This document shows positions 20,207 to 64,000 of a stretch of DNA of 64,000 nt, piece by piece; the first letter of the stretch is position 1, and every line of letters starts with the position of its first letter. The notes under the pieces were generated by a model. The model was given only the letters and a program-made list of their open reading frames with translations, was not told where the DNA came from and searched no databases. This DNA comes from Halomarina oriensis (lineage in GTDB: Archaea > Halobacteriota > Halobacteria > Halobacteriales > Haloarculaceae). The translations under genes were made by a program, and so were the position numbers. The stretch lies in NCBI RefSeq assembly GCF_009791395.1, contig NZ_WSZK01000011.1, positions 1 to 64,000 of the forward strand, written 5' to 3'.

Positions 20207-21202
20207 TCACTCCCCGGCGTCGACGACACACCGGAACCCGATGTTACCGGTCGAGGAGTCGGGGGTGTTCTGTGAGCGGGCCGCAACGCGATAGCGATTG
20301 CAGTACGAGTCGTGACAGAGGTACGACCCGCCGCGCATCACGCGAGCGTCGCCGCTCTCGGGGCCACTCGGATTCTCGCGGGAGTAATCGTCGGTGGTGT
20401 GGTAGTCGGCGCTGAACCAGTCGGCACACCACTCCCAGACGTTCCCCGAGACGTTGAACAGGCCGTAGTCGTTGGGTTCGTAGGCGTCGACCGGTGCGGT
20501 GCCGTGGTAGCCGTCGGCGGCGGTGTCCTCGTCGGGGAACGCCCCCTGCCAGACGTTGCAGCGGTGCTCGCCGTTCGGCGTCAGTTCCTCACCCCACGCG
20601 TACCGCTTTCTCGCGAGCCCACCGCGCGCGGCGAACTCCCACTCGGCTTCGGTTGGCAGGCGTTTCCCCGCCCAGTCCGCGTAAGCGACGGCGTCGCGGT
20701 GGGAGACGTGCGTGACCGGGTGGTCGAGCCGGTCGTCGAGGGCGTTCGACGACGGCCCCTCGGGGCGGAACCAGCGGGCACCTTCGACGGCCAGCCACCA
20801 CGGTGTGGCCGCGACCGAGTCCAGCACCCCTGATTCGTCTTCCGGAGCCACGAAATCCTGAAACACGAACGACCAGCCGAAGCGCTCGGCGTCGGTCGTG
20901 TAGTCCGTGTCGCGGACGAATCGAAGGAACTCCCGAACGGTCACCGCGTGTCGGTCGACGAGAAACGGGTCAAGGGTGACTTCGCGGGGAGGCCCTTCGC
21001 CGTCCTGTGGGAAGCCGACGCCGTCGTCGGTCCCCATCGTGAACGTGCCGCCGTCGAGTCGGACCATCCCGGTCGTGCGAACCTTGCCGACCGACGTCGG
21101 TTCGGCCGTCACACTCGCGTCCCGCGTCGCGTCAGTCTCGCCCGTGTCACGGCTCGCCGAACAGCAGGGTGGGTCGCCGGCCGTTGGCCCGTCGTCGCTC
21201 AT
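20207..21202 (-). CDS. formylglycine-generating enzyme (sulfatase activator)
   Basis: This 331-aa FGE/SUMF-family oxidase converts the cysteine of a sulfatase CxPSR motif into formylglycine with O2 and copper. The C-terminal active-site block RGGSYLCHDSYCNRYRVAAR (290-309) matches eukaryotic and aerobic FGE: both catalytic cysteines, C296 and C301, are present with the same five-residue spacing. The QNTPDSSTGNIGFRC segment follows. Other FGE marks are GGTFTMGTD (51-59), RLPTEAEWEFAARGG (181-195) and NVSGNVWEWCADWF. It has no signal, so it acts in the cytosol. Two sulfatases (24166, 54250) are its evident substrates. It is divergent from dgoD. Confidence 0.96.
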   Translation of the reverse strand: MSDDGPTAGDPPCCSASRDTGETDATRDASVTAEPTSVGKVRTTGMVRLDGGTFTMGTDDGVGFPQDGEGPPREVTLDPFLVDRHAVTVREFLRFVRDTDYTTDAERFGWSFVFQDFVAPEDESGVLDSVAATPWWLAVEGARWFRPEGPSSNALDDRLDHPVTHVSHRDAVAYADWAGKRLPTEAEWEFAARGGLARKRYAWGEELTPNGEHRCNVWQGAFPDEDTAADGYHGTAPVDAYEPNDYGLFNVSGNVWEWCADWFSADYHTTDDYSRENPSGPESGDARVMRGGSYLCHDSYCNRYRVAARSQNTPDSSTGNIGFRCVVDAGE

Positions 21203-21251
21203 GGTCGACGTCTCCCGGCGGAGCAGGATAAACGTTCAGCCTGTGCCGGCA

Positions 21252-21281
21252 GCGACGAGTAAAGAGCTAATAGCTCGTCGC
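21252..21281. promoter_or_regulatory. nested palindrome over the dgoD promoter
   Basis: The outer arms GCGACGAG (21252-21259) and CTCGTCGC (21274-21281) enclose the palindrome GAGCTA-A-TAGCTC (21264-21276). The centre (CTAATAG) lies about 30-35 bp before the ATG at 21301, where a TATA box is expected. This would let a repressor block transcription factor binding. It is in the 98-bp region shared with the divergent FGE gene, so it may control both. Confidence 0.6.
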
Positions 21282-21300
21282 CGATTGTCCCTGACACGCA

Positions 21301-22452
21301 ATGGTGACTATCGTCGACTACGACCTCTACCAGGTGCCGCCACGGTGGTTGTTCCTCCGCCTCGAAACGAGCGACGGCCGGGTCGGCTGGGGTGAACCCG
21401 TCGTCGAGGGACGCGCCCGGACGGTCAAGACGGCCGTCGAGGAACTGCTCGACACCTACCTGCTCGGGTCGGACCCCGACCCCATCGAGGACCACTGGCA
21501 GACGATGTACCGTGGCGGGTTCTACCGCGGTGGCCCGGTGCTCATGTCGGCCATCGCCGGTATCGACCAGGCGCTGTGGGACCTCAAGGGCAAGCAGTTC
21601 GGCGCGCCCGTCTACGAACTGCTCGGCGGGAAGGCACGGAACCGCGTGCAGGTCTACCAGTGGGTCGGCGGGGACCGGCCCAGCGAGGTAGCCGATGCCG
21701 CCCGTCGACAGGTCGACTCGGGGCTCACCGCCGTGAAAATGAACGGGACGCCGGAGTTCCGGGCCATCGACACGCCTGCAGCGGTCGAAGCGGCCGCTGA
21801 TCGCCTTCGCGAGGTTCGTGAGACGGTCGGTCCCGAGGTCGGTGTCGGCGTCGACTTCCACGGCCGCGTCTCGAAGTCGATGGCCAAGCGCCTCGCCCGT
21901 GCGCTCGACCCGCACGACCCGATGTTCCTCGAAGAGCCGGTCACGCCCGGTCACGACGAAGCGCTCACAGCGCTCGCGGCACACACGACGACACCCATCG
22001 CCACGGGCGAACGCCACTACTCGCGGTGGGATTTCAAACCGCTACTCGAATCGGGTGCGGTCGACGTGGTTCAGCCGGACCTCTCACACGCCGGCGGTAT
22101 CACCGAGGTACGGAAGATCGCCGCGATGGCCGAGGCCTACGACGTGGCGCTCGCCCCCCACTGCCCGCTCGGTCCCATCGCCTTCGCCGCGTGTCTACAG
22201 GTTGATGCCGTCGCGCACAACGCGCTCATCCAAGAACAGAGCCTCAACATCCACTACAACGAGACGGCCGACGTGCTCGACTATCTCGCCGACCCGTCGG
22301 TGTTCGACTACGGCGATGGGTTCGTCGATCTCCCGGAGGAACCGGGGCTGGGTATCGCCATCGACGACGCCGCCGTCCGTGAGCGGGCCGGCGACGTCGA
22401 CTGGCACAACCCCGTCTGGCGTCACGACGACGGCAGCGTCGCGGAGTGGTGA
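21301..22452 (+). CDS. dgoD: D-galactonate dehydratase-like enolase-superfamily enzyme
   Basis: This 383-aa enzyme converts an aldonate to 2-keto-3-deoxy sugar acid. It follows E. coli DgoD almost collinearly: N-terminal VPPRWLFLRLETSDGRVGWG and YRGGFYRGGPVLMSAIAGID, then metal/catalytic residues D185 and H187 (DFHGRVS), E211 (LEEPV), E237 (TGER) and H287 (APHCPLGPI), and the C-terminal VWRHDDGSVAEW. Galactonate is therefore the best substrate guess, although gluconate or other aldonates are possible. It probably feeds a semi-phosphorylative Entner-Doudoroff route encoded elsewhere. A palindrome overlaps its promoter. A broken SDR gene overlaps its 3' end. Confidence 0.92.
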   Translation: MVTIVDYDLYQVPPRWLFLRLETSDGRVGWGEPVVEGRARTVKTAVEELLDTYLLGSDPDPIEDHWQTMYRGGFYRGGPVLMSAIAGIDQALWDLKGKQFGAPVYELLGGKARNRVQVYQWVGGDRPSEVADAARRQVDSGLTAVKMNGTPEFRAIDTPAAVEAAADRLREVRETVGPEVGVGVDFHGRVSKSMAKRLARALDPHDPMFLEEPVTPGHDEALTALAAHTTTPIATGERHYSRWDFKPLLESGAVDVVQPDLSHAGGITEVRKIAAMAEAYDVALAPHCPLGPIAFAACLQVDAVAHNALIQEQSLNIHYNETADVLDYLADPSVFDYGDGFVDLPEEPGLGIAIDDAAVRERAGDVDWHNPVWRHDDGSVAEW

Positions 22453-23211
22453 CGGTGGTGGACGACGACCGCTCCACCCAGAACACCTTCGATACCGTCG
22501 CCACGCCTCGCTTCGACGACCCGACCACGAACGCCGTTCCCGGCCGGTTCGACGGGAAGACCGCACTCGTCACGGGCAGCACGCGCGGCATGGGCGCGGG
22601 GATGGCCCGACGGTTCGCGGCGGAGGGTGCGAGCGTCGTCGTGACCGACCGTTCCGCGGAGTCCGGCGAAACTGTCGCGACTGACATCCGCGGGGTCGGT
22701 GGCGAGGCTCGGTTCGTCCGGGCGGACATGCGCGACCCCGACGACATCGAGGCACTCGTCAAGGCGACTGTCGAGACGTCTGGCTCGTTGGACGTACTCG
22801 TCAACAACACCGGCGTCCAGACCGAGACGACCGCAGAGGAAGCGACGGCCGAGGACTGGGCGTTCGTCGTCGAGACGGACGTCCGCTCGTTCTAGCGCTG
22901 TACGAAACACGCCGCTCCACATCTCTCCCGAGGAGCGAGCGTCGTCAACACCTCCGCGAACCACGCGTCTCTGACCCGGCTGGGTCGAAATCGCCCGCAC
23001 CCGCGAAGAGTTGGTCGACGCCGACCGCCAGCGCGTCGAGGCGATGTATCCAGTCGGCCGCATCGGAACGCCCGCCGACGACGCGGGCATCGTGGCCTTC
23101 CTCGCCAGCGACGACGCGGCGTTCGTCACCGGGGCGAGTCTCCTCGTCGACGGCGGGCGTGGTGCCGTCACGGAAAACAAGGCGTTCCTCGACTTTCGCG
23201 AGCGAGGGTAG
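22446..23211 (+). pseudogene. SDR dehydrogenase with internal deletion
   Basis: The 5' part has a good Rossmann start (TALVTGSTRGMGAGMARRFA), NNTGVQ and the DVR segment, but stops after VETDVRSF (22895). A residual HISPEERASSTPP-type stretch lies out of frame. The 3' part resumes from about 22980 as VEIARTREELVDADRQRVEA then MYPVGRIGTPADDAG, the normal SDR C-terminus ending at 23211. The missing piece is where Ser-Tyr-xxx-Lys should be, so the product would be inactive. It began as a translationally coupled partner of dgoD (7-bp overlap, GTG start), perhaps a sugar dehydrogenase. Confidence 0.82.
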
Positions 23212-23256
23212 TTCGGCGGGCGCGGAGTCGACGGTCGATGAACTACCGTCGTCCTG

Positions 23257-24039
23257 TCAGGCGTCGCCGTAGCGGTGTTTCCAGTTGTCGATGGGCTGTT
23301 GACCGCCATCGACACGCAGTTCGTGGCCGTTGACGTAGTCGCTCGCGGGCGCACAGAGGAACTGGACGGCGTCGGCGATCTCCGCCGAGCGGGCGAACCG
23401 TCCGAGCGGGTTGAGGTCGAGGATCTGCTCGCGGGTCGCGGCCTCGAAATCGGCGGTCATCCGCGTATCCGTCCACCCCGGCGCGACGGCGTTCACCCTG
23501 ATACCGTCCCGGCCGAGTTCGAGCGCCAGCGTCTTCGTCAACCCGAGTAGCGCGAACTTCGCCACGTCGTACTGTGGCGACATCCCCACACCGTTTTTCG
23601 TGTGAATCGAGGTGATGTTGACGACCTTCCCGTAGCCCTGCTCGACCATCCCGTCGAGCGCGTGCTTAGTGCAGTAGATGGCCCCGCGGAGATGGGTGTC
23701 GAGGTTGAGGTTCCAGAACGTGTCGTCCGGTTCGTTACGGAAGCGGTCGCCCTGCCCGACGCCGGCATTGTTGACGACGATGTCGATGGTCCCGAACTGG
23801 TCGGTTCCACGTTCGACCATCGCCTGCACTGCTGACTCGTCGCTCACGTCACACGCTATCCCGATTGCCTCGCCACTCCGTTCATCGATACGCTCGACCG
23901 TCTCCTCGGCCGGCCCCGAATCGAGGTCGTTGACGACGACGCTCGCACCGTTCGTGGCGAGTCGCTCGGCGATAGCTCGCCCGTTTCCTCGTCCCGCACC
24001 CGTCACGAGTGCGACGCTGTCACTGAGGTCGGTCTGCAT
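23257..24039 (-). CDS. short-chain dehydrogenase (sugar/glucose 1-dehydrogenase-like)
   Basis: This 260-aa classical SDR has the nucleotide motif VTGAGRGNGRAIAERL (about 11-26), NNAGVGQ (about 88-94), the catalytic serine in ITSIHTKNG and YDVAKFALLG (Tyr-xxx-Lys, about 153-157), followed by the APGW turn. A D at the end of beta-2 (NDLDS) favours NAD(H). The start at 24039 (MQTDLSDSVALVTG) is preferred; the longer frame to 24156 has no support. It is divergent from the sulfatase and next to a second, deleted SDR. It probably oxidises a sugar or its lactone precursor in the island's pathway; the substrate is unknown. Confidence 0.9.
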   Translation of the reverse strand: MQTDLSDSVALVTGAGRGNGRAIAERLATNGASVVVNDLDSGPAEETVERIDERSGEAIGIACDVSDESAVQAMVERGTDQFGTIDIVVNNAGVGQGDRFRNEPDDTFWNLNLDTHLRGAIYCTKHALDGMVEQGYGKVVNITSIHTKNGVGMSPQYDVAKFALLGLTKTLALELGRDGIRVNAVAPGWTDTRMTADFEAATREQILDLNPLGRFARSAEIADAVQFLCAPASDYVNGHELRVDGGQQPIDNWKHRYGDA

Positions 24040-24134
24040 ACGCGTCGCTGTCGGCGAAAGCACTAACGCGTTCAGGTTCCGGCAGCGACGACTCACCGAC
24101 GGCCGAGCGGGACGCGGGTGGTGGCTCGCCCGGC

Positions 24135-24140
24135 AATTAA
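24135..24140 (+). promoter_or_regulatory. TATA-like element of sulfatase gene
   Basis: AATTAA lies 26-31 bp before the ATG at 24166, consistent with a leaderless sulfatase mRNA. Confidence 0.45.
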
Positions 24141-24165
24141 GTAGTGACCCAACCATCCGTCAGCA

Positions 24166-25749
24166 ATGCGCGTGTTGCTCGTCGACATCGACTCGCTGCG
24201 CCCGGACCATCTCGGCTGTTACGGCTACTCTCGTGACACCTCGCCGACTATCGACCGTGTCGCCGCCGACGGCGTCCGCTTCGAGAACTGCTTCGTCTCG
24301 GACTCGCCATGTCTCCCCTCGCGGACGGCGCTGGCGACCGGTCGCCACGGCATCGACACCGGCGTCGTCACCCACTTCGGCGAGGGACAGTGGTACGATA
24401 ACCCCGGGAGTGGTCACGACCCGGACCCCGACCGGCCGCTCGCGTTTCAACACCTCGCACAGCACGGGGTCCGTACGGCGTCGGTGAGCAGTTTCACGCA
24501 GCGCCACATGGCGTATCACTTCGCTGCGGGGTTTCAAGAGTCGATCCAACCGACCGCCGAGACCGGGCTGCTGGCGGTCGAGGACGCGAGCGACGTGACC
24601 GACGCGGCGCTGACGTGGCTCGGCAGTCACGCGACCGAGGACGACTGGCTCCTCCACGTCAACTACTGGGACGTCCACCACCCGTATCAGGGCGTTACCG
24701 AGCACGTCGACGCCGTTCGCGACTCGGGGCCGGCTCCGGACTGGCCGGACGAAGCGGCGCTCGCGGCTCAGGAGGGAATGACAGGGACGCGTACTCGCGA
24801 ACTGTGGCCCAACCCGGCGGAACTCGACGCCGACTGGTACGACGAGAAGTACGGCGAGCGGCCGATGCCGGAGGCGTTCGACTCACGCGAGGACGTCAAG
24901 CAGGTTGTCGACGGCTACGACGCCGCGATCCGAAAGGTCGACGCGGCGGTTGCGGACCTCCTCGACGCGCTCGATGCCCACGGCGTCCGTGAGGAGACAG
25001 TAGTGATCGTGACGGCCGACCACGGCGAGGCGCTCGGCGAACACGGTATCTACGCCGAACACGCTCTGCCGCATCCGGCCTGTCAGCGCGTCCCGCTCGT
25101 GGTGTCGTGGCCCGGTCCGACTGCCGAGTCATCGACCGAGTCAGATGCCGACGACGAGAGTGTGGGACCGTCGGTCGACGGCTACGTCTACCAGTTCGAC
25201 CTCGTCGCGACGCTCTGTGACCTGCTCGACGTTCCCGTTCCGTCCGGGTGGGCCGCCGAGTCCTTCCGCGAAGCGCTCACGCCGAACGATCGCCCGTTCG
25301 CTGGCCGGGAGCAGGTGGTGTGTGGACACGGCATCTACACGTTCGGCCGGGCGCTGTACGCCGACGGCTGGATGTACGCCCGTCTGCTCCATCCCGGCGT
25401 GTTCTCGCTGCCGGGCCAGTACAACGACCCTGCGCTCCCGAACGACGGTCTCGAACTGCTGCACGACCTCGACGCCGACCCCCACGGGAGCGAGAACCTC
25501 GTCGCCGAGCGGCCGGAGCGGGCCGCCGAGATGCGCGCCCGGATGGACCGGTGGCTCGCCGACCGACTCGGGGAGCGGTGGCCCGACCATCGGCCGGTCG
25601 AGACGGTCGGCCGGGACCCGCTAGCGGCGATGTGCCCTGCCGGTCCGTACCTCTACGTCGACCCTGACGACCTGCTGGCGCTCTACCACGAGCGTGACGA
25701 CGACCAGCGCGCGGACCGACTGCGTGCGACGCTATCGCGCCACGAGTGA
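24166..25749 (+). CDS. sulfatase, CxPSR type (sulfatase 1)
   Basis: This 527-aa type I sulfatase removes sulfate esters from sugars. The activation motif is CLPSR (C49-R53) in SDSPCLPSRTALATGRHG. Metal ligands are visible in VDIDSLRPDH (residues 6-15) and VIVTADHGEALGEHG (about 283-297). It has no signal peptide, so it acts in the cytosol on imported oligosaccharides and can meet the local FGE there. Length and the C-terminal half with FDLVATLCDLLDVPVPSGW are typical. The sugar specificity cannot be predicted. It is a distant paralogue of the sulfatase at 54250. Confidence 0.95.
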   Translation: MRVLLVDIDSLRPDHLGCYGYSRDTSPTIDRVAADGVRFENCFVSDSPCLPSRTALATGRHGIDTGVVTHFGEGQWYDNPGSGHDPDPDRPLAFQHLAQHGVRTASVSSFTQRHMAYHFAAGFQESIQPTAETGLLAVEDASDVTDAALTWLGSHATEDDWLLHVNYWDVHHPYQGVTEHVDAVRDSGPAPDWPDEAALAAQEGMTGTRTRELWPNPAELDADWYDEKYGERPMPEAFDSREDVKQVVDGYDAAIRKVDAAVADLLDALDAHGVREETVVIVTADHGEALGEHGIYAEHALPHPACQRVPLVVSWPGPTAESSTESDADDESVGPSVDGYVYQFDLVATLCDLLDVPVPSGWAAESFREALTPNDRPFAGREQVVCGHGIYTFGRALYADGWMYARLLHPGVFSLPGQYNDPALPNDGLELLHDLDADPHGSENLVAERPERAAEMRARMDRWLADRLGERWPDHRPVETVGRDPLAAMCPAGPYLYVDPDDLLALYHERDDDQRADRLRATLSRHE

Positions 25750-27043: not shown

Positions 27044-27760
27044 TCACAGCGGTCGAACCCAGATGTTCCGAAACCGGACGCGGTCGCCGTGGTCCTGAAG
27101 CGCGAGTGGAGCCTCAGTCGGGTGGTTTTCGTACTGTGCGACCGCCCGGTGTACCGTTTCCCCGAGGAGTGTCGTTCGATGCTGGACGAGGACGCCGTTG
27201 TGAAACACGGTCACGACGGCCGGCCGTTCCACGCGCTCCTCACGAAAGTGTGGCCCGTTCCAGACGATGTCGAAGCACTGCCACTCGCCGGGTGGCCGTG
27301 ACGCGTTGACCAGGGGTGGAGACTGACCGTACACCGCCCCGGCGTATCCGTCCGCATACGTCGGATTGTCGTAGTTGTCGAGAACCTGGATCTCGTAGCG
27401 ATCCATGAGAAACACCCCGCTGTTGCCGCGTCCCTGCCCGTCGTCGGTCGTCGCCGGCGGCGATGCCCATTCGAGGTGAAGCTGACAGTCGCCAAACACG
27501 CGCTCGGTTCGAACGTTCCCGGTTCCCGGCGCGACCTCGGCGTAGTCGGCTTCGACGTGCCACTCGACATCACGACCGTCTTCGTGTTCCCACTCAGCCA
27601 TCGCATTGCCGTCGAAGAGAACCGTCGCGTCCGAGGGCGGCTCGCCGGTCGCCAGAGCTCCCCCGGGATCGACCGGTTCGGGATGCGGTCGGTCGGGGTC
27701 GTGGACGCGGTAGCCACACTGTGGCAGTGTTGGCGTGTCGGTGTATCCGGGGTTTTCCAT
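27044..27760 (-). CDS. DUF1080 protein (3-keto-disaccharide hydrolase family)
   Basis: This 238-aa concanavalin-like protein begins MENPGYTDTPTLPQCGYRVH and includes LFDGNAMAEWEHEDGRDVEWHVEADYAEV, RGNSGVFLMDRYEIQVLDNY and GEWQCFDIVWNGPHF, the core of PF06439. Family members cleave or process 3-ketoglycosides or act as glucanase-like modules. It has no signal, so it is probably cytosolic. The stop of the long open frame and the homologous start both support 27760. It is followed 44 bp upstream (leftward transcription) by a Gfo/Idh oxidoreductase, the enzyme type that makes 3-ketosugars, which fits a shared pathway. Confidence 0.9.
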   Translation of the reverse strand: MENPGYTDTPTLPQCGYRVHDPDRPHPEPVDPGGALATGEPPSDATVLFDGNAMAEWEHEDGRDVEWHVEADYAEVAPGTGNVRTERVFGDCQLHLEWASPPATTDDGQGRGNSGVFLMDRYEIQVLDNYDNPTYADGYAGAVYGQSPPLVNASRPPGEWQCFDIVWNGPHFREERVERPAVVTVFHNGVLVQHRTTLLGETVHRAVAQYENHPTEAPLALQDHGDRVRFRNIWVRPL

Positions 27761-27804
27761 GGCTGGGATTACGTCCAGGCTCCTGTGTAGCTGTCGCTCG
27801 GTGG

Positions 27805-28917
27805 CTACTCCCGGACGTCGATCCACTCTCCGGTCTCGGCGGATTCGTACGCGGCGTCGAGCACTCGGAGCAACTGGACCGCGTCGTCGACCGTCGCTGG
27901 GACGTCGCCCGTCTCGTACCCCGCGAAGTACGCCTCGAAGTAGTCCTGGACGAAGTCGCCCCACGCGGGGAACCGGTCGTAGGTCGGCTCGAACTCGACG
28001 GTCCGGCGCGGCGCGGCCGACCAGTCGGGGGCCGACGAGGTGAGTTCGAGTGGCACCGTCGGTTCGTGCTGGAGCGAGTCGTGGTGCAACGGCGTCTGCG
28101 CCTGCGCGTCGGTCCCGTACAGCCCGAGATGAGTGTCCTTGCCACGGTCGCTGAGGTAGTAGCCGGTGTGGTACGTGCCGAGCGTCCCGCCTGCGGTTTC
28201 GAACTGGAGGACGGCCCCCGCGTCGACGTCGGCGTGGGGGTCGTCGGCGTCGTGGAACCGGGCGTTGACGCGGACGATGGGGTCGTCGAGGATCCACGGC
28301 ATGGCGTCGAGCCAGTGAGGGCCGATCCACTGGAGTGCCCCGCCACGGCTCGTCTCGCGGTCGTAGATGTAGTGGGTGGTGTCCCGATACGAGAGTTGGC
28401 TGGCGTTGAACCGTCCCTCGACGGTCCAGACGTCGCCGAAGAATCCCTCTCGAACCCGCTCGCGGAGGTCCATCGCGACGGGGTTTCGTCGGTAGTAGAG
28501 CGTGGGTGAGACGGTGACGTCAGCCTCGGTGGCCCGCCGAGCGATCGGTTCGAGGTCGGTGGCGGTCCGGGCGATGGGTTTCTCGCTGATGACGTGGACG
28601 CCGTTCTCAACGGCTGCCTCAACGACGGCGGGCGTCTCGTCGCTCCGGTAGGTGATCCAGACGACGTCGATGTCGGCGTCCGCGACGAGTCGCGTCGGGT
28701 CCTCGTAGACGGCCGCATCCTCGACGAGGCTCGCGACCTCCTGACCCTCCGTGGTCACCTCGTCGGGGCGCTCGTCCATCGCCGTGAGCGCGGCGGTGTC
28801 GACACGCTTGCCGGGTTCACAGACCGCCGTGACGGTCACGTCGAGGCCGCTCGCGACGGTGAAATACGGGTCGCGGTGGTGGTGCTCGACGCCGACGTAG
28901 CCGATTCGGACTGTCAT
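27805..28917 (-). CDS. Gfo/Idh/MocA oxidoreductase 1
   Basis: This 370-aa NAD(P)-dependent sugar dehydrogenase family member has the N-terminal Rossmann fold (MTVRIGYVGVEHHHRDPYF) and the EKP motif (VHVISEKPIA, about residues 100-108) with the catalytic lysine. The C-terminal alpha/beta domain carries GGALQWIGPHWLDAMPWIL, with the usual D/H pair near the active site. The start at 28917 is preferred to 28941. It is transcribed ahead of the DUF1080 gene (44-bp gap), so it may oxidise a sugar at C3 to make that protein's substrate. A palindrome lies just before the start. Confidence 0.92.
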   Translation of the reverse strand: MTVRIGYVGVEHHHRDPYFTVASGLDVTVTAVCEPGKRVDTAALTAMDERPDEVTTEGQEVASLVEDAAVYEDPTRLVADADIDVVWITYRSDETPAVVEAAVENGVHVISEKPIARTATDLEPIARRATEADVTVSPTLYYRRNPVAMDLRERVREGFFGDVWTVEGRFNASQLSYRDTTHYIYDRETSRGGALQWIGPHWLDAMPWILDDPIVRVNARFHDADDPHADVDAGAVLQFETAGGTLGTYHTGYYLSDRGKDTHLGLYGTDAQAQTPLHHDSLQHEPTVPLELTSSAPDWSAAPRRTVEFEPTYDRFPAWGDFVQDYFEAYFAGYETGDVPATVDDAVQLLRVLDAAYESAETGEWIDVRE

Positions 28918-28924
28918 GTCGACC

Positions 28925-28939
28925 GTTCGTGAAACGAAC
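28925..28939. promoter_or_regulatory. perfect palindrome GTTCGT-GAA-ACGAAC
   Basis: The arms GTTCGT and ACGAAC are separated by three bases. The palindrome lies 8 bp upstream of the ATG at 28917, between the start and a TATA-like TAGTTTC (28945-28953, minus strand). It is a good operator candidate for the leftward Gfo/Idh-DUF1080 transcript. Confidence 0.5.
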
Positions 28940-29022
28940 ACAAGAAACTACCCCCTCCGCCGAGGCTTGGAGCCGATATCGGCGGCTACGACGGTCGACT
29001 GACGGTCGCCTGTCCACCGGAA

Positions 29023-29030
29023 ACTATTAT
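29023..29030 (+). promoter_or_regulatory. TATA-like element of Gfo/Idh 2
   Basis: ACTATTAT lies 17-24 bp before the ATG at 29047. A purine-rich GGGAGGTGATG follows, so either a leaderless start at 29047 or a start at 29062 is possible. Confidence 0.45.
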
Positions 29031-29046
29031 CAGCGCGCGGGAGGTG

Positions 29047-30210
29047 ATGAGAACGAAACAGATGAAAGAGCTAGGTATCATCATGAACGGCGTGACCGGA
29101 CGGATGGGAACCAACCAGCATCTCGTCCGGTCCATCCTCGCGTTGCGCGAGGAAGGTGGCGTGGAACTCCCCGACGGCGAGCGTGTCCTGCCCGACCCGG
29201 TGCTCGTCGGGCGGGACGAACGGAAGCTGCGACGGTTGAGCGAGGAGTACGGCGTTGAGCGCTGGACCGCCGACCCCGATCTGGAGTCGTGTCTCGACGG
29301 CGACGACACGGTCTACTTCGACTCCCAGATAACCAACCGTCGTGCGCCCGCCCTGCTACGAGCCATCGAGGCCGGCAAGCACGTCTACTGCGAGAAGCCC
29401 CTCGCATCGGACCTCGACACGGCCGTCGAGGTGGCGCGCACGGCCGAGGCGAGCGGTGTGAAACACGGCATCGTCCAGGACAAGCTCTGGCTCCCCGGCA
29501 TCCAGAAGCTCCAGCGCCTGCTCGACATGGACTTCTTCGGCGAGGTGCTCTCGGTCCGCGTCGAGTTCGGCTACTGGGTGTTCACGGGGCACGGCCAACC
29601 CGCCCAGCGACCGTCGTGGAACTACCGGGCGGAGGACGGCGGCGGCATCATCGACGACATGTTCTCCCACTGGAGCTACGTGCTGGAGACCCTCTTCGGT
29701 CGGGTGGAGTCGGTGGCCTGTCTCGGGAGGACACACGTCCCGCGTCGCGTCGACGAGGCCGGCGAGGAGTACGAGGCGACGGCCGACGACGCCGCCTACG
29801 CCATCATGGAACTGGACGGTGGGACGGTCGCGCAGGTGAACTCGTCGTGGACGACCCGCGTCAACCGGGACGACCTGCTGGAGATCCAGGTCGACGGCAC
29901 CGACGGGAGCGCCGTCGCCGGACTCCGCGACTGCAAGACACAGTCACACGCGAACACACCGAAACCGGTCTGGAACCCCGACACGCCGACAAACCACGAT
30001 TTCACTGACGACTGGAGCGATGTCCCGAACAACCGTGAGTTCGAGAACGCGTTCAAACAGCAGTGGGCCGCGTTCCTCCGCCACGTCGCCGCCGACGAGC
30101 CGTTCCCCTACGACTTCCGGGAGGGGGTCAAGGGCATCCAGCTGACGGAGGCGAGTCACCGGTCGTGGGACGAACGGCGCACCGTCGACATTGACGAGCC
30201 GCCGGTCTGA
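29047..30210 (+). CDS. Gfo/Idh/MocA oxidoreductase 2
   Basis: This 387-aa oxidoreductase has the nucleotide site near IIMNGVTGRMGTNQHL, the EKP motif (KHVYCEKPLASDL, with the catalytic K) and QDKLWLPGIQKLQRLLDMDFF. The C-terminal domain includes WNYRAEDGGGIIDDMFSHWSYVLE, where D and H residues typical of the active site are seen. It is longer at the N-terminus than the other three Gfo/Idh proteins and carries a HANTPKPVWNPDTPTNHDFTDD insert. The start at 29047 or 29062 is uncertain. It is divergent from Gfo/Idh 1 and converges with the LarA-like gene. A sugar or inositol-like substrate is likely. Confidence 0.9.
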   Translation: MRTKQMKELGIIMNGVTGRMGTNQHLVRSILALREEGGVELPDGERVLPDPVLVGRDERKLRRLSEEYGVERWTADPDLESCLDGDDTVYFDSQITNRRAPALLRAIEAGKHVYCEKPLASDLDTAVEVARTAEASGVKHGIVQDKLWLPGIQKLQRLLDMDFFGEVLSVRVEFGYWVFTGHGQPAQRPSWNYRAEDGGGIIDDMFSHWSYVLETLFGRVESVACLGRTHVPRRVDEAGEEYEATADDAAYAIMELDGGTVAQVNSSWTTRVNRDDLLEIQVDGTDGSAVAGLRDCKTQSHANTPKPVWNPDTPTNHDFTDDWSDVPNNREFENAFKQQWAAFLRHVAADEPFPYDFREGVKGIQLTEASHRSWDERRTVDIDEPPV

Positions 30211-30241
30211 GCGGCCGACCGCGGTCTGTGAATCGTCGCTG

Positions 30242-31627
30242 TCACTCTCCACTCGGGTCGTCCTCGTCGCTCCGGGCGGCCGGTGCCGCCTCGTGTGGCG
30301 TCGGTGCGACGAAGTCACCGCCCTCGAAGGCGATAGGTTCGGGTTCGGCGACGACGCGGAGGTCGTCGCGTTCGCGTGCCGTCTCGACGAGCGCGGTCGA
30401 CGCGTAGAGCTGGCCGAGGCGCATCGTGTCGGTCGCACGGACGACTCGGACGGTGTCGGGGTCGACGACCCCGATGGTCGAGAGCGCACAGACCAGCCCC
30501 GCACGGTCGGTTTCGGCGACCGGCGGGAGGCGGACTCCTCGTGTCGTGCTCGCCGTCAGTGCGTTGACGAGCGTGGTCGGCATATCGACGGCGGCGAGCA
30601 GGTCGGCGTGGACGACGTCGGCCGACCCCATCCCCATCGCGTTGCCGTGGGCCGCCTCCGTGAGCGACCGGGTGTAGATGCGCTTGATGTCCGGGTGGTC
30701 GGGTTCCGGCTCTTGAATCGCGAACGGGCGGCGGCCGATGACGTTCGTGTCCATGCCTTGTCCGCTGACGTCCTTGCCTTGCCGGTCGATGATGAGGACG
30801 TCAATGTCGTCGAACGGGAGCGTCGGCATGCGCTCGTAGGCCGTCTCCAGCAGTTCCGCCTCGCGGTTGAGGAAGCCACTCGGTGGGACCCCTTCGATGA
30901 GCGTCGTATCGTCGTGCTGGTCCTCGACGATAGCGACGCCGCCCACGACGGGCAGCGCGTCGAGGAGCTGTTCGGTAATCGCTGGAAGCATCTCCCGGAG
31001 TGACCAGTCGACCGCCCAGTCGTGGGCGATTTTCGCGCCGCGCTGCTTCCCGAGACCGATGACGAGCATCTTCGAGAGGCCGCTCTCGACGGTCCCGTCG
31101 AAGTCGGTGTGCGGTTTCACACGGTTGATGGGGAGGATGGCGTCGGCGTCGGCCGCATGCGCGTCCGTGACGACCGGAACGTCCCGATCGGCGGTGCGCC
31201 CGACCTCGACGACATCCATGCTCGACCGAATCGCACAGCCGACCGACGCCTCGGTGACGCCGAGTTCGGCGAGCATCTCGCGTTGCCCCTCGGCGGTCGC
31301 TCCGCCGTGGCTGCCCATCGCGGGAACGACGAACGGGTCGAACCCCCGCCCGTCGAGCGCGTCAACGACGCCGGCGACGATGGCGGGCAGATTGGCGATG
31401 CCCCGACTCCCCACGCCGAGCGCGACCTCTCCGCCGTCGGGCACGCCGTCGAACGACATCCCGTCTACCGCACGGGCAGCGTGCGCACGGACCTCCCCGT
31501 GCGGGATCGGGTCGGTGTCCCACATCTGCTCGATGAGTCCCAGCTCCGGCAGCGGCGTCTCGCCGCAAGCGTCGAGAACGGTCGCTTCCGGAACGGCGAG
31601 CGACGACTGGGGCGTGTTCGAGTCCAT
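30242..31627 (-). CDS. LarA-like (DUF2088/lactate racemase N-terminal) protein
   Basis: This protein of about 461 aa carries the lactate-racemase-type fold (VALGVGSRGIANLPAIV, FVVPAMGSHGGATAEGQREMLAELG, ILPINRVKPHTDF). Conserved H residues of the LarA family are present: SHGG and KPHTDF. The long C-terminal part includes SLTEAAHGNAMGMGSADVV. The start at 31627 (MDSNTPQSSL) is preferred, since the upstream frame is poor. LarA needs a nickel pincer cofactor, and no larB/C/E genes are in the window. A role as a 2-hydroxyacid racemase or epimerase in sugar-acid catabolism is inferred. Confidence 0.85.
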   Translation of the reverse strand: MDSNTPQSSLAVPEATVLDACGETPLPELGLIEQMWDTDPIPHGEVRAHAARAVDGMSFDGVPDGGEVALGVGSRGIANLPAIVAGVVDALDGRGFDPFVVPAMGSHGGATAEGQREMLAELGVTEASVGCAIRSSMDVVEVGRTADRDVPVVTDAHAADADAILPINRVKPHTDFDGTVESGLSKMLVIGLGKQRGAKIAHDWAVDWSLREMLPAITEQLLDALPVVGGVAIVEDQHDDTTLIEGVPPSGFLNREAELLETAYERMPTLPFDDIDVLIIDRQGKDVSGQGMDTNVIGRRPFAIQEPEPDHPDIKRIYTRSLTEAAHGNAMGMGSADVVHADLLAAVDMPTTLVNALTASTTRGVRLPPVAETDRAGLVCALSTIGVVDPDTVRVVRATDTMRLGQLYASTALVETARERDDLRVVAEPEPIAFEGGDFVAPTPHEAAPAARSDEDDPSGE

Positions 31628-32203
31628 GCGTGCTGGGCCGCGGTGCTGGGGCATAAACCTGGCCCACCGTCCGTCCCGGATCAGTGGTCGGTCCGTCGGG
31701 ACCGTCACGAAGGACAGTATGTCGGCGCGGCATGGACTGCCTGTCTCATTTCTGTTCACTAAGGGTAAACATAGGCCGGAATAGTGGTGTGTTAACAGCC
31801 GACGATTTTCAAGAGACTAACAGTACTAGTCTTGTTATGGGCTCCGCAAAGCGGCCCATTTTGGTTGAACAGCTGTTTTTCTGTAGTGAACAAACTAATC
31901 TGCCCCTCGTCACGCGACCGTCACTGCCTCCGGTCCACACCTCCGCCGTGGGGCAGAAGAGCGACTCTCCGGGATCGCCCCGGTGTGCTACGTGTTCACT
32001 AACGTCGAACGTCGTCGGGTCGTACCGTGGTCTTGATTGTGTGTGGTGCCCGCAGAGCTGGTCGAATCGCTCACGACTCCGTCAGCGGCGGCCGAGCGAC
32101 GGCGCCTCGATGTGACCGAGATTCACGTAACTGCCGACAGGCTTACTATGGTCGTCCGACGAGACGGACGTGAGTGTACCATGCTCCAATCAGGTGATCC
32201 GAT
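31628..32203. other. 576-bp divergent intergenic region with repeats
   Basis: No gene is seen. Repeated TGTTCACTA elements occur at 31753-31762 (+), 31884-31892 (-) and 31993-32002 (+). A gapped palindrome AACAgtACTAGTctTGTT lies at 31820-31837. A hairpin-like GGG-ct-CCGC-AAA-GCGG-CCC at 31840-31858 is followed by ATTTT. This is the most signal-rich intergenic region of the catabolic island and probably controls the divergent LarA-like and DUF1961 genes. Confidence 0.55.
31820..31837. promoter_or_regulatory. gapped palindrome AACA-nn-ACTAGT-nn-TGTT
   Basis: This 18-bp element has symmetric AACA/TGTT ends around the palindrome ACTAGT. It sits in the region with three TGTTCACTA copies. It is a possible regulator-binding site; this is not proven. 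Confidence 0.4.
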
Positions 32204-32887: not shown

Positions 32888-35056
32888 TCAGAACCGGGCG
32901 TCCGTCACCGCCTCGATGAGCCGCTCGACCCGCTCCGGCCCCGGCAGGTAGGCGTCCTCGGTCTGATTCCCGGGGAAGTGTACGTCGAACCCGGTCGCCC
33001 GCTTGATCGGCGCTTCGAGGTACTCCAGCGCGTGTTCGTTGACGAGCGCCGACAGCTCAGCGCCGAGTCCGAGCGTCCGCCGCGCCTCGTGGAGGATCGC
33101 ACATCGACCCGTCTTCCGAACGGACGCGAGCACCGTCTCGACGTCCAGCGGCGCGAGGGTCCGTAGGTCAACGAGTTCGACGCTCGCATCGACGCGCTCG
33201 GCCGCCGTGACCGCGTGTGGGATCATCGCCCCGTACGTGAGGAGCGTCACGTCCGTCCCCTCGGTGACGAGTCGCGCGTCGTCGAGTGGCCGCGTGTACT
33301 CCTCGACCGGGACCGGCTCGGTCGCCGTCCGGTAGCACCGCTTCGGCTCCATCACGACGACGGGGTCGGGGTGGCGAATACTCGCCGCCAGTAGCCCCTT
33401 CGCCTCGGCTGGCGTGCTCGGGCAGACGACGCGGACGCCGGGGGTGTGGACGAGGAACGACTCGGTCGACTCGGAATGGTACTCGCTGGCTTTGATACCG
33501 CCGCCGTAGGGCACTCGAACTGTCAACGGTACCTCGGTGTTCCCGCCGGTTCGTTCGTAGGTCTTCGCGAGGGCGTACATGAACTGGCCGAACGCGGGGT
33601 AGAGAAAGCCCATGAACTGTATCTCCGCGACGACCCGCTCGCCGCGCATTGCCATCCCGACCGCGGTCCCGAGGATGCCGTTCTCCGAAAGCGGTGTGTC
33701 GACGACCCGCTCCCGCCCGAAGCGCTCGACCAGCCCCTCGGTCGCCCTGAAGACGCCGCCGATGGGGCCGACGTCGTAGCCGAGGAGCCGAACCCGGTCG
33801 TCCCGCGCGAGCTCCTGGTGGAGCGTCCGATTGACCGCCGTCACGAGGTTCATCGGCTCGGTCTCGCCCGTCGGTGTGGGCCGCTCGCTCGGTCGTTCAC
33901 TGTCGGCGTGTATAGAGTCACCCGCACCGCCGCCCAGTTCGACCCCGGCGTCGAGAAACGGGTTCTCGCCGTTCAGTTCGGCGCGAAGCTCTGCACGTTG
34001 GCGACGTTCCCGCCACGAGGTGCCGTGGAGGTGGTTGTCGAACATCGTCGAGGGGTCGGACCGGGGCACCGACCGGGCGCGGTCGACGGCCGACGCAACG
34101 GTCGATTCGGCCTCGCGTTCGATCGCCGCGATGCGGTCGTCGTCGAGAACCCCTTCGTCGACGAGGTACGTCTCCAGGCGGTCGAGCGGGTCGCGGTCCG
34201 CCCAGTAGGCGGCCTCCCGGTCGCTCCGGTAGACGCTTTCCTCGTCGGCGGTGTTGTGTTCACCCCTCCGATAGGTAACGCACTCGACGAAGGTCGGCCC
34301 GTCGCCGCGACGTGCCCGCTCGACGGCGTCGCGGGTGGCGTCATACACCGCGAACACGTCGTTCCCGTCGACGCGGTCGTGTGGAACGCCGTACGCGTCG
34401 GCCTTCTGAGCGAACGTCTCGGCGGCCGTCTGCCGGTGAGCCGGCACCGAGATCGCCCACTGGTTGTTCTGACAAACGATGACCGCCGGCGCGTCGAACA
34501 CGCCGGCGAAGTTGAGCGCGTCGTGGAAGTCACCCTGACTCGTCGACCCGTCGCCGATGTACGCCATCGTGACGACGTCCCGGTCGCGAAAGCGGTCGGC
34601 CATCGCTGACCCGACCGCGTTGGTCACGTTCGCCCCGAGCGGGATGTACGCGGGGGTGACGTTCACCGCAGGCGAATCGGAGATAGAGAGGTGTTCGTCG
34701 ATAGTTTCGGGCTCTTTGCCCATGAGCCCCGCGACGAGACGGTCGATGGGTGCGTCCCAGTAGAGCGACGCCGGGGTCTGGCGGTAGGTGGGAAAGAGCC
34801 AATCGGCCGGGCGAAGCGCCGCACTCGACCCGAGTGACACCGCCTCCTCGCCAAGCGTCCGGGAGACGATGCTGACCTCACCACGTCGCTGCATGGCGAA
34901 CAGTCGGGATTCGAGGGTGCGCGTCAGGACGATGGTCCGATAGAACGCGAGGAGTTCCGCCTCGTCGCGAATCGGTGCCGGCCGTTCGAGGTCACCGCTT
35001 GGCGTCAGTATTCGATCGAACGCTTCGGCGGGTCGCCGCTCGTCCCAGACGTCCAT
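32888..35056 (-). CDS. fused 2-oxoacid dehydrogenase E1 alpha-beta
   Basis: This 722-aa protein joins the two subunits of a branched-chain-type E1 (thiamine diphosphate) decarboxylase. The alpha part (about 1-365) has the ThDP motif GDGSTSQGDFHDALNFAGVF with GDG at 168-170 and NN at 197-198. A charged linker (about 366-400) leads to the beta part (from about 402, MNLVTAVNRTLHQELARD), with PLSENGILGTAVGMAMRGERVVAEIQFMGF and PYGGGIKASEYHSESTES. E1 normally hands the acyl group to E2 and E3, and neither is in the window. It may decarboxylate a 2-oxoacid derived from sugar breakdown and partner with an E2 elsewhere. Confidence 0.94.
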   Translation of the reverse strand: MDVWDERRPAEAFDRILTPSGDLERPAPIRDEAELLAFYRTIVLTRTLESRLFAMQRRGEVSIVSRTLGEEAVSLGSSAALRPADWLFPTYRQTPASLYWDAPIDRLVAGLMGKEPETIDEHLSISDSPAVNVTPAYIPLGANVTNAVGSAMADRFRDRDVVTMAYIGDGSTSQGDFHDALNFAGVFDAPAVIVCQNNQWAISVPAHRQTAAETFAQKADAYGVPHDRVDGNDVFAVYDATRDAVERARRGDGPTFVECVTYRRGEHNTADEESVYRSDREAAYWADRDPLDRLETYLVDEGVLDDDRIAAIEREAESTVASAVDRARSVPRSDPSTMFDNHLHGTSWRERRQRAELRAELNGENPFLDAGVELGGGAGDSIHADSERPSERPTPTGETEPMNLVTAVNRTLHQELARDDRVRLLGYDVGPIGGVFRATEGLVERFGRERVVDTPLSENGILGTAVGMAMRGERVVAEIQFMGFLYPAFGQFMYALAKTYERTGGNTEVPLTVRVPYGGGIKASEYHSESTESFLVHTPGVRVVCPSTPAEAKGLLAASIRHPDPVVVMEPKRCYRTATEPVPVEEYTRPLDDARLVTEGTDVTLLTYGAMIPHAVTAAERVDASVELVDLRTLAPLDVETVLASVRKTGRCAILHEARRTLGLGAELSALVNEHALEYLEAPIKRATGFDVHFPGNQTEDAYLPGPERVERLIEAVTDARF

Positions 35057-44875: not shown

Positions 44876-45952
44876 ATGTCCGAACATATACGACTCGGCG
44901 TCATCGGCGCGGGCGGCATCTTCCGGCGACGACACTTCCCGGCGTTCGCCGGGATGGACAACGTCTCCGTCGAGATTATCGCCAACCGAAGCGTCGAGAG
45001 CGCACACGACATCGCACAGGAGTTCGACTTCGACGCCACGGCCTCCGACGACCCCGATGCGGTCGTCGCCCACGAGAACGTCGACGCGGTGATGGTCGGC
45101 ACGTGGCCGTACAAACACCACGAGTACGCGCTGGCCGCGCTCGATGCGGGCAAGCACGTCTTCGTACAGGCACGGATGGCCCGCACCTACCAGGAAGCGA
45201 AGGAGATGCACGACGCGGCCCGCGAGTCGGACCTCGTGACCCAGATCTGCCCGTCACCGATGGCGATGGAGGGCGACCGAACGATGCGGCGACTGCTGGA
45301 GGAGGGCTACGTCGGCGACGTCCACCTGATTCGTGGCCACGTCCTGAGCGGGAACGGTATCGACCCGGAGACGCCGTTACACTGGCGTGACGTCGAACAC
45401 TACCAAGGTGTCAACGCCTTGCAGGTCGGCATCCTCGCCGAGCGGCTCCATCGCTGGTTCGGCCACGCCGACACCGTCTCGGCGCGCGCGGAGACCCGGA
45501 TTCCGGAGCGCCCGCTCCCCGACGGTGAGGGCGGGGGTACCGACGACGCCGGTGGCGACACCGAGACGGCCTCCGTCGAGCGTCCCGACCTCGTTTCCAT
45601 CGACTGTGAGCTGGACAGCGGCGCGTTCATGACGCTCGATTTCTGCAGCGTCGCCGAGCACTCGCCGGCCAACCAGGTCGAGGTGTACGGGAGCGAGGGG
45701 ACGCTCGTCTACGAGTTCGCCGACGACACCATCCGCGGGGCGGCCGTCGAGGACGACGAGTTGCTGGAGATGCCCATCCCGGACGAGGAGCGTGTCGACT
45801 GGACCGTCGAACAAAACTTTGTCGACGCCATCCGTGAGGGTGGGTCGCCCCGGACGACGTTCCGTGAAGGAATGAAGTACATGGAGTTCACCGAGGCGGT
45901 GTTCCGCTCGGTCGAGCGTGGCGAGGCGGTGACCCTGCCGCTGGTCCGCTGA
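44876..45952 (+). CDS. Gfo/Idh/MocA-type oxidoreductase 3 with altered EKP motif
   Basis: This 358-aa protein with a Rossmann motif (LGVIGAGGIFRRRHFPAF) has the Gfo/Idh layout, but the lysine-containing EKP motif is replaced: GKHVFVQARMARTYQEAKEM. The catalytic lysine is thus arginine or lost, so the protein may not oxidise sugars in the normal way. The C-terminal domain carries HWRDVEHYQGVNALQVG and a low-complexity acidic insert (GEGGGTDDAGGDTETA). The start at 44876 (MSEHIRLGVIG) is preferred to 44861. It is followed by the sugar isomerase at 46058. A lyase, isomerase or altered dehydrogenase role is possible. Confidence 0.88.
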   Translation: MSEHIRLGVIGAGGIFRRRHFPAFAGMDNVSVEIIANRSVESAHDIAQEFDFDATASDDPDAVVAHENVDAVMVGTWPYKHHEYALAALDAGKHVFVQARMARTYQEAKEMHDAARESDLVTQICPSPMAMEGDRTMRRLLEEGYVGDVHLIRGHVLSGNGIDPETPLHWRDVEHYQGVNALQVGILAERLHRWFGHADTVSARAETRIPERPLPDGEGGGTDDAGGDTETASVERPDLVSIDCELDSGAFMTLDFCSVAEHSPANQVEVYGSEGTLVYEFADDTIRGAAVEDDELLEMPIPDEERVDWTVEQNFVDAIREGGSPRTTFREGMKYMEFTEAVFRSVERGEAVTLPLVR

Positions 45953-46057
45953 GGGCGACGGGGAACGGCCCGGTAGTCGCCTCATGCGGTCCGGCCAGTT
46001 CCTGACCCGTCGCCACGGTAGTTTCTTGTAACGGGGTACCGAGCGTTCGTTTGACCC

Positions 46058-46885
46058 ATGCGCATCTCGCTGTCGACGCTTGGCTGTCCCGACTGGGACC
46101 TCGACACCATTTGTACGACCGCCGCCGACAACGGGTTCGACGGCGTCGACTTCCGTGGCTACCGGGAGGAGATCGACGTCACCCAGCACCCACAGTTCAC
46201 CGACCGACTCGTCGAGACGATGGCACGACTCGCCGACGCGGGACTCACCGTGAGCGGCCTCAGCACGAGCATCAGAATCTGTTTCGCGGACAAACGCGAG
46301 GAGAATCTCGCCGAGGCACGGCGCTACATCCCGCTCGCCCACGAGTTAGGGGTCGACACGATTCGGGTGTTCGGCGTCGGCGACGCCGAGGAACACTCAC
46401 TGGAGGAACTTGCCCGCGTCGGTGGTGAGACGGTTCGTGACATCCTCGCGCTCGACGGCGCGGCGGACCTCCGATGGCTCGTGGAGACCCACGACAACTG
46501 GACCTCGTCGGCGGACTGCCGACTGCTGCTGGACGAACTCCCTGACGACAACACGGGTATCCTCTGGGATGTCGGGCACACGACGCGCCTCGGTGGCGAG
46601 TCGCCCGCCGAGACGCTCGACGCTATCGGCGACCGCATCGAGTACGTCCACGTCAAAGACGCCGTCTACGCCCCCGACGACGAGAACGCCAAGGACGACG
46701 GCTGGGTGTTCGTCCTTCCTGGCGAGGGCGAACTCCCCATCGACGACGCCCTCCGCGAACTCGACGACCGTGGCTACGACGGCTGGGTCGTCCACGAACA
46801 CGAGAAACGCTGGCAGCCATACGTCGCCGACCCCGAGGTGGCGTACCCCGCGTTTGCGGAGTGGTACCGGACGGTGCTGGAGTGA
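46058..46885 (+). CDS. sugar phosphate isomerase/epimerase (AP-endonuclease-2 fold)
   Basis: This 275-aa TIM-barrel protein of the Xyl-isom-like family has metal residues visible in WLVETHDNWT (E and D/H type), TGILWDVGHTTR (D, H), EYVHVKDAVY (H, K, D) and GWVVHEHEKRW (E, H). This fold includes hexulose/keto-acid isomerases and 3-ketosugar acting enzymes. It is located between a Gfo/Idh gene and a RidA gene on the same strand, as often seen in glycoside catabolism loci, and may act on a keto-intermediate. A TTTCTTGTA element 28-36 bp before the ATG is TATA-like. Substrate unknown. Confidence 0.9.
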   Translation: MRISLSTLGCPDWDLDTICTTAADNGFDGVDFRGYREEIDVTQHPQFTDRLVETMARLADAGLTVSGLSTSIRICFADKREENLAEARRYIPLAHELGVDTIRVFGVGDAEEHSLEELARVGGETVRDILALDGAADLRWLVETHDNWTSSADCRLLLDELPDDNTGILWDVGHTTRLGGESPAETLDAIGDRIEYVHVKDAVYAPDDENAKDDGWVFVLPGEGELPIDDALRELDDRGYDGWVVHEHEKRWQPYVADPEVAYPAFAEWYRTVLE

Positions 46886-47327: not shown

Positions 47328-48452
47328 TCAGTCCTCGGCCGGGGTCGGGGAGAGCTCCTCGGCGTCGACGAGCGCCTCCAGCGGGTTGTCCTCGGCGTCG
47401 AGCGGGAGGTCGATGCGGCCTCGCTGGCGCACCGATTCGTACACTGCGAAGATGAGTTCGGTCGCGACGAGCGCCCGACTCGCGGCGGTCTCGGGTTCCT
47501 CGCCGGCCGCGAACGAGTCGACGACGTGCGCGATACTGTCGACGACACGGTCGCCGTCGGCGTCGATATCGATTCCCGTCCACTCGGTCTCACCCTCCCG
47601 GCGATAGCGGTTCTCCTCGCCGCCCTCGTGGAGTTCGACGACACCGTTGGACCCGCACAACCGGAGCGACGCGTCGACGAGCCACGCGCCATCACCAACG
47701 GCAGCGAACCCACCGAGACGACCGTCGGCCGCGTTCTCGCCGTCCGCTGCCGTCCCTACACCCGCGTTCTCCTCCGGTTCGTACGCCCACTGGATGACCG
47801 CCTGGTTCACGTTGTGGGTTCCGTAGCGGACGTTCTCGGTCCGGTAGTCGACCTGCCCGAGGACCCAGTCGACCGGTCGGGCGTCGGTGAAGAACGTACA
47901 CATGTCGAACAGGTGGGTGCCGTGGTCGAGGACGTTCCGCGGTGCGACCTCGACGCGTTCGAGGTCGCCGATTCCCCCGTCGTCAAGGACGCGTTTGGCT
48001 TCTCGCCACGCCGGGTCGAACCGCCGCTGATGGTTGAACGTCAACTGAACGCCATAGTCGTCGGCCGTCTCGGCCATCCGTCGGGCGTCGCCCCACGTGT
48101 CGGCCATCGGCTTCTCGCAGTGGATCGCGTTCACGTGGCCGCTCTCGATACAGTCGACGACGATGTCGGCGTGGGTCGGGACGGGTGTACAGACGCTGAC
48201 GAAGTCGGGGTCGTGAGCGGCGAGCATCTCGCCGTAGTCCTCGTAGACGCTCTCAGGGGAGATGTCGAACTCCTCGGCGAACGCACGAGCGTTCTCGGGA
48301 ACGAGGTCCGCACATGCGACGAGGTCACACTGGTCGTGCTGACGATAGCCGGCGGCGTGTCGGTACGCCATCGCCGCGCTCTCGCCCCAGACGGGCGTCT
48401 CCGGGTTCGGGCCGGTGCCCACGAAGGCCACCGTGAATCGTGAGTCGGACAT
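47328..48452 (-). CDS. Gfo/Idh/MocA oxidoreductase 4
   Basis: This 374-aa oxidoreductase starts MSDSRFTVAFVGTGPNPETP. The Rossmann region is followed by the EKP motif with the lysine kept (GHVNAIHCEKPMADTWGDARRMAET) and the HQRRFDPAWREAKRVL helix. It has a long C-terminal region with low-complexity acidic/alanine parts (ADGENAADGRL). The start at 48452 is set by family alignment, because the longer frame reaching 48911 is not coding. Its stop meets the RidA stop without a gap (convergent). A sugar or sugar-alcohol substrate is likely; specificity is unknown. Confidence 0.9.
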   Translation of the reverse strand: MSDSRFTVAFVGTGPNPETPVWGESAAMAYRHAAGYRQHDQCDLVACADLVPENARAFAEEFDISPESVYEDYGEMLAAHDPDFVSVCTPVPTHADIVVDCIESGHVNAIHCEKPMADTWGDARRMAETADDYGVQLTFNHQRRFDPAWREAKRVLDDGGIGDLERVEVAPRNVLDHGTHLFDMCTFFTDARPVDWVLGQVDYRTENVRYGTHNVNQAVIQWAYEPEENAGVGTAADGENAADGRLGGFAAVGDGAWLVDASLRLCGSNGVVELHEGGEENRYRREGETEWTGIDIDADGDRVVDSIAHVVDSFAAGEEPETAASRALVATELIFAVYESVRQRGRIDLPLDAEDNPLEALVDAEELSPTPAED

Positions 48453-55674: not shown

Positions 55675-55940
55675 GGCCGACCGGTCTCACCTGGCGCGCA
55701 TAAATTGGTGGGAGGAGGCCGCCGTCCAACCCACCCGGTCCGACGAACCGGACGAGTTTCGTGATTGTACTTCGATTTGCAAACAAGACTAATGTGTGAT
55801 GAAAATTACGTTCAGACGGGGCACGGGCGGACAAACCGACGACGAGTCGTTGGGAGAGCGACGGGTCTGTCGGCCCTGTCAGTGGGACCGTCGGAGCCGT
55901 GCGACGTGACCGCCTTCAACCCCGGAGACGAGCGAACACG

Positions 55941-57437: not shown

Positions 57438-57546
57438 CGCCGCCGGCCGGTCCGCGGTCGCGTTGGCCCCCTGTTGCTGGGCGCGCCCGACCGGGCCGTC
57501 ACCGTCCGGCGGCGCATTGATATGGCTCGTCGACGAGCGAGCGCGT

Positions 57547-59499: not shown

Positions 59500-59539
59500 C
59501 GAGTGCGATCGATCCATCCGGGTTCGGGCGACGGGTCGG

Positions 59540-60292: not shown

Positions 60293-60383
60293 GCGGTATC
60301 GTGCGTCGCGGGAACGGTATATCTGCGCCTCACACCAGAGCCCGACGCCGATAGTTAAGACGGACCACCGAGTAGTGCCGGCC

Positions 60384-63850: not shown

Positions 63851-64000
63851 TCAGCGAACGGTGGCTGCCGTCGCGAGCGCCGTCGCCGGCTCCCGATACT
63901 GCCGGTACTGCTCGCGTCCCCATTCGACGCTTCGTTCCGTCGTGTTCTCGATGAGCCCGCAGCAGCCGTGACTCGTGTGGACGACGAGGACGACTCGTTG
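63851..64000 (-). CDS. 3' end of a gene cut by the window edge
   Basis: A minus-strand frame enters at 64000 without a start and ends at the TGA at 63851-63853, giving the last 49 residues. It reads QRVVLVVHTSHGCCGLIENT, then EWGREQYRQYREPATALA and ends ATVR. The sequence has a normal haloarchaeal amino-acid pattern and high third-base G/C. The CC pair and the long helix are visible, but I cannot assign a family from a fragment. Confidence 0.65.
   Translation of the reverse strand, partial: QRVVLVVHTSHGCCGLIENTTERSVEWGREQYRQYREPATALATAATVR

Follow-up and report, generated by a model that had tools for sequence, protein, structure and literature searches.

Bacterial DUF1080 (PF06439) proteins have been implicated in the cleavage of 3-ketotrehalose and 3'-ketolactose (PMC9007349). 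In the Caulobacter lactose pathway of LacABC plus a DUF1080 protein, a dehydrogenase gene lies near the DUF1080 gene, as it does in the haloarchaeal locus described here; there, however, LacABC is membrane-bound and the DUF1080 protein is thought to be periplasmic (PMC9007349), whereas here the dehydrogenase is of the Gfo/Idh family and no signal peptide was visible by eye at the N terminus of the DUF1080 protein. The O-glycoside beta-eliminase pathway of Agrobacterium provides the same order of chemistry, namely C3 oxidation, elimination and hydration, but there the elimination falls to an Mn enzyme of the sugar phosphate isomerase type, not to a DUF1080 protein (PMC10628242). Closer to it are the PF06439 3-keto-glycoside eliminase/hydratases (8rr2 and 9fbe, the hydratases 8tda and 8v31, and BT2157), which belong to the same Pfam family, match it at Z 18-19 and have ExQxLD and QDHGD motifs in common with it. 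In contrast to these enzymes, to which it is 20-28% identical, the haloarchaeal protein is known from its sequence and a predicted model, and it sits on another branch, nearest to the bacterial protein BDI_3914 of Parabacteroides distasonis (4qhz).

In haloarchaea, the use of glycosaminoglycans through lyases, sulfatases, GH88 and GH154 has been reported; a term search of that paper found neither Gfo nor DUF1080 (PMC13260240). An archaeal 3-keto-disaccharide hydrolase or DUF1080 protein acting on 3-keto glycosides was not found in the literature searched, outside of which most subscription papers lie. Should the DUF1080 protein described here prove active, glycoside cleavage of the oxidation-first kind would also take place in the archaeal cytosol.

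The DUF1080 protein and its predicted fold

The window, a stretch of 64,000 nucleotides, is part of contig C3 of the 4.07-Mb genome of Halomarina oriensis, and carries the two genes of interest within a polysaccharide island:

27044..27760, minus strand: DUF1080 / PF06439 protein, 238 aa, probable 3-keto-glycoside eliminase/hydratase (PF06439 profile, predicted model and structure matches)
27761..27804 (44 bp), minus strand: gap between the GFO_A stop and the DUF1080 start (sequence)
27805..28917, minus strand: GFO_A, Gfo/Idh protein of a divergent haloarchaeal subfamily, 370 aa (Pfam; 71-83% identical orthologs in 19 other genomes; conserved HHHRDP and W197)

The original prediction had placed a Gfo/Idh gene and a DUF1080 gene here, 44 bp apart, and this arrangement was confirmed exactly. 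Both reading frames are open throughout on the minus strand, with GFO_A spanning 27808-28917 plus its stop (27805-27807) and the DUF1080 frame spanning 27047-27760 plus stop, with its start at 27758-27760.

The DUF1080 protein matched PF06439 over profile positions 2-187 of 187 (E 1.7e-40, 139.5 bits against a cut-off of 26.8), and a profile search of the genome found no PF06439 gene besides this one. An AF2 model built from 36 relatives reached a pLDDT of 94.7 and a pTM of 0.92. The nearest solved relative, 4qhz, is 44% identical (sequence match E 1.3e-55) and superimposed on the model with Z 30.6, at 1.4 A across 203 residues. Next came 9fbe, 8rr2, 8v31 and 8tda, with Z of 18.4-19.2, all of which are titled either 3-keto-glycoside eliminase/hydratase or 3-keto-2-hydroxy-glucal hydratase. 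Sequence alignments revealed that the ExQxLD and QDHGD motifs of the protein recur in the solved relatives; among its 79 close relatives, ExQxLD was found in 78 and QxH in 72, and the window protein has both. Taken together, the DUF1080 protein is a sound member of PF06439, modelled with the fold of solved 3-keto-glycoside eliminase/hydratases, and it is probably active as such an enzyme, probably in the cytosol.

The protein could instead bind carbohydrate, or be a hydrolase of another kind, with no 3-keto activity. Lectins and binding modules have the same fold, the title of 4qhz states no activity and speaks only of a putative glycosyl hydrolase, and an endo-xanthanase/lichenase has been described for a PF06439 protein (PMC9007349). 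However, the matches to 3-keto eliminase/hydratase structures lie well above the lectin background (Z about 11-12.6), which reflects the common jelly-roll fold, and the window protein retains both motifs, as do nearly all of its relatives; they recur in the solved ones. We consider a DUF1080 protein lacking 3-keto activity unlikely.

Bacterial relatives of the protein are abundant in many phyla, at about 51-62% identity. Identities of about 60% to bacterial sequences, against 54-58% to haloarchaeal ones, led us to consider a recent transfer from bacteria; since the haloarchaeal sequences group together on one side of the tree, with support that is moderate (89/83), such a transfer is not claimed.

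GFO_A and its conserved neighbours

GFO_A passes the cut-offs of all three Pfam profiles for the N- and C-terminal domains (PF01408, PF22725 and PF02894); its Rossmann-domain match begins no earlier than profile position 46. The EKP motif, which the original prediction described as intact, indeed retains its lysine (Lys113), and His201 is also kept, but the protein departs from the family elsewhere. In the GGxLxDxGxH motif the usual Asp is replaced by Trp197, a substitution seen in each of the 19 orthologs inspected. The glycine-rich nucleotide loop is GYVGVEHHHRDP, on the pattern GYxGxxHHHRDPYF, and the same 19 orthologs show GYxGxxHHHRDP. Modelled with AF2 (pLDDT 79), GFO_A adopts the Gfo/Idh fold and resembles a large number of family members to about the same degree, so that the model singles out no substrate. 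Against the NCBIfam disaccharide 3-dehydrogenase and levoglucosan dehydrogenase families, GFO_A scored 31.2 and 56 bits, far below the equivalog cut-off of 650. By its sequence, GFO_A belongs to a divergent subfamily and is not assignable to the known glycoside 3-dehydrogenases.

We searched 391 Halobacteria genomes, one per species, and found GFO_A orthologs in 19 others, at 71-83% identity. Homologs of the DUF1080 protein were found in 9 other genomes, and not one of these was among the 19. The single overlap is thus the window genome itself, which is about what chance would produce. Loci around 17 of the GFO_A orthologs were compared, one of which starts at a contig end. GFO_B was found near GFO_A in 15, a LarA homolog in 14, and an IclR gene, labelled by sequence recognition rather than by a profile, close by in 15; DUF1080 was present in 0 of 17 loci and in none of the 19 ortholog genomes. 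The GFO_B homologs adjoining GFO_A are 76-82% identical to that of the window. Also recurrent are ABC transporters, a FAH-family hydrolase and an enolase-family protein, and, in several of the loci, GH28 and pectate-lyase-like genes. In the window, LarA, GFO_B and GFO_A are ordered and oriented as they commonly are in the relatives, and the DUF1080 gene occupies the position of IclR. The two neighbours on the far side of GFO_A are:

29062..30210, plus strand: GFO_B, second Gfo/Idh protein, conserved neighbour of GFO_A (Pfam; homologs beside GFO_A)
30242..31759, minus strand: nickel-pincer cofactor-dependent isomerase, group 22 (LarA homolog), start codon uncertain (NCBIfam NF052515; near GFO_A in most loci)

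The LarA homolog scored 487.5 bits against NF052515, above the equivalog cut-off of 400, which places the conserved neighbour of GFO_A in group 22 of the nickel-pincer isomerases. The genome also encodes a LarC-family nickel insertion protein (E 3.5e-128). Characterised LarA homologs interconvert 2-hydroxy acids (PMC11770544); a substrate for group 22 was not found in the literature searched. From these sequence comparisons, the nickel-pincer isomerase of group 22 and the two Gfo/Idh proteins form a trio that is widely conserved in haloarchaea (27805-31759 in the window; loci L052-L068). It is usually accompanied by IclR, FAH hydrolase and enolase-family genes and sometimes by pectin-degrading genes, and its pathway is directly testable.

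Relationship between GFO_A and the DUF1080 gene

The original prediction proposed 3-keto glycoside cleavage as a possible role of the two genes as a pair. GFO_A would oxidise a glycoside, either a disaccharide or a uronate oligomer, at C3 with NAD, and the DUF1080 protein would cleave the product by elimination and hydration, in a dedicated archaeal pathway. The fold and motifs of the DUF1080 protein speak for its share in this scheme. The genes lie close together on one strand, and known 3-keto pathways include members of both families. Beside the 79 close relatives of the DUF1080 gene, which are mostly bacterial, Gfo/Idh genes filled 8 of 150 neighbour slots, compared with 8 of 630 among genes farther away, a modest enrichment (p 0.005, uncorrected for the relatedness of the genomes). 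Five of the eight are on the same strand, and Gfo/Idh was the most frequent family (5/55) in a Pfam tally of same-strand neighbours that covered 55 of 72 neighbours and whose gene selection includes some out-of-frame ORFs for DUF1080. Haloarchaeal PF06439 domains also occur inside large proteins (L074:9529-13893, L077:7113-11144 and L075:6441-8885), fused to GSDH sugar dehydrogenase, malectin and dockerin domains, or else to an AP_endonuc_2 TIM barrel; some of these domains lack the His of the QDHG motif. Given the enrichment and the fusions to GSDH and TIM-barrel domains, it is credible that DUF1080 proteins are linked in general to the oxidation of sugars.

The case for a specific coupling with GFO_A is weak. 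Only a single genome was found to carry the pair, and the orthologs of GFO_A live with other, constant partners; several standalone haloarchaeal DUF1080 homologs are surrounded by unrelated genes. Neither the Asp nor the glycine-rich loop usual in the family is present in GFO_A, and it scores far too low to join the disaccharide 3-dehydrogenases or levoglucosan dehydrogenases. With 19 Gfo/Idh Rossmann matches in the window genome, moreover, a Gfo/Idh gene next door is not rare in itself. Codon usage also differs between the two genes. Among the correctly framed genes compared, with the HEP2 row left out, DUF1080 had the lowest GC3 (0.75) and the lowest codon score (0.57); the other genes scored 0.67-0.78, with GFO_A among the highest at 0.77. 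We therefore regard a dedicated pathway of the two proteins as improbable. Because its orthologs keep other company, GFO_A and DUF1080 seem to have become neighbours recently and not to form a long-standing pair, and the partnership with GFO_A is the part of the original prediction that was not supported.

The reading we favour, with a probability of roughly 0.55, is that the gene of an active DUF1080 eliminase/hydratase has come to lie behind GFO_A, which itself is part of a conserved sugar-acid module that can do without the DUF1080 protein. The DUF1080 gene would have been inserted where relatives carry the IclR regulator gene, and would be co-transcribed with GFO_A. The module, consisting of GFO_A, GFO_B, the nickel-pincer isomerase and often the FAH-family hydrolase, the enolase-family protein and pectin-degrading genes, may handle uronate-derived sugar acids, a job for which DUF1080 would be dispensable. 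The DUF1080 protein, for its part, may cleave a 3-keto glycoside or hydrate a 2-hydroxy-3-keto-glycal that one of the cell's sugar dehydrogenases produces. Two considerations count against this reading: the enrichment of Gfo/Idh genes near bacterial relatives, as judged from sequence, favours a functional partner next door, and the pair may exist in other genomes, as the search covered one genome per species.

A bolder proposal combines both sets of genes. The divergent Gfo/Idh protein with its HHHRDP loop would oxidise uronate-derived disaccharides and the DUF1080 eliminase/hydratase would cleave them, forming a cytosolic archaeal 3-keto-glycoside pathway added onto the nickel-pincer-dependent sugar-acid module. 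We hold this to be a shade less probable still than the dedicated pathway.

Other dehydrogenases and the surrounding island

Three more Gfo/Idh genes and a TIM-barrel isomerase had been predicted nearby, and all were found, with only GFO_B lying within 10 kb. The remaining ones are:

44876..45952, plus strand: GFO_C, Gfo/Idh-like protein with EKP replaced by QAR, possible partner candidate (Pfam; motif)
46058..46885, plus strand: xylose-isomerase-like TIM barrel, AP_endonuc_2 (PF01261, E 3.4e-31)
47328..48400, minus strand: GFO_D, Gfo/Idh protein with EKP and the usual Asp and His, start approximate (PF01408, E 1.7e-20; motif)

An active DUF1080 eliminase/hydratase might work together with a different dehydrogenase encoded in the island, for example GFO_D or GFO_B, so that its place behind GFO_A would give expression only. 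GFO_D has EKP, Asp and His all present, and the many Gfo/Idh matches in the genome offer further choice, but neither linkage nor conservation backs a pairing with GFO_D or GFO_B. This alternative is tentative, and we place it below the favoured reading of a DUF1080 gene set behind GFO_A, yet above the dedicated pathway.

GFO_C lies about 100 bp upstream of the TIM-barrel isomerase on the same strand (44876-46885). These two were considered as an alternative 3-keto pair and set aside, as GFO_C is without EKP.

Elsewhere in the island (20207-25749, 37587-41471 and 54250-62778) are an FGE-type sulfatase-modifying enzyme, two sulfatases and three heparinase II/III-like proteins, and further homologs follow on contig C3 past position 64000 (L192). 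A single ORF at 32888-35056 contains both the alpha-like and the beta-like parts of a 2-oxoacid dehydrogenase E1.
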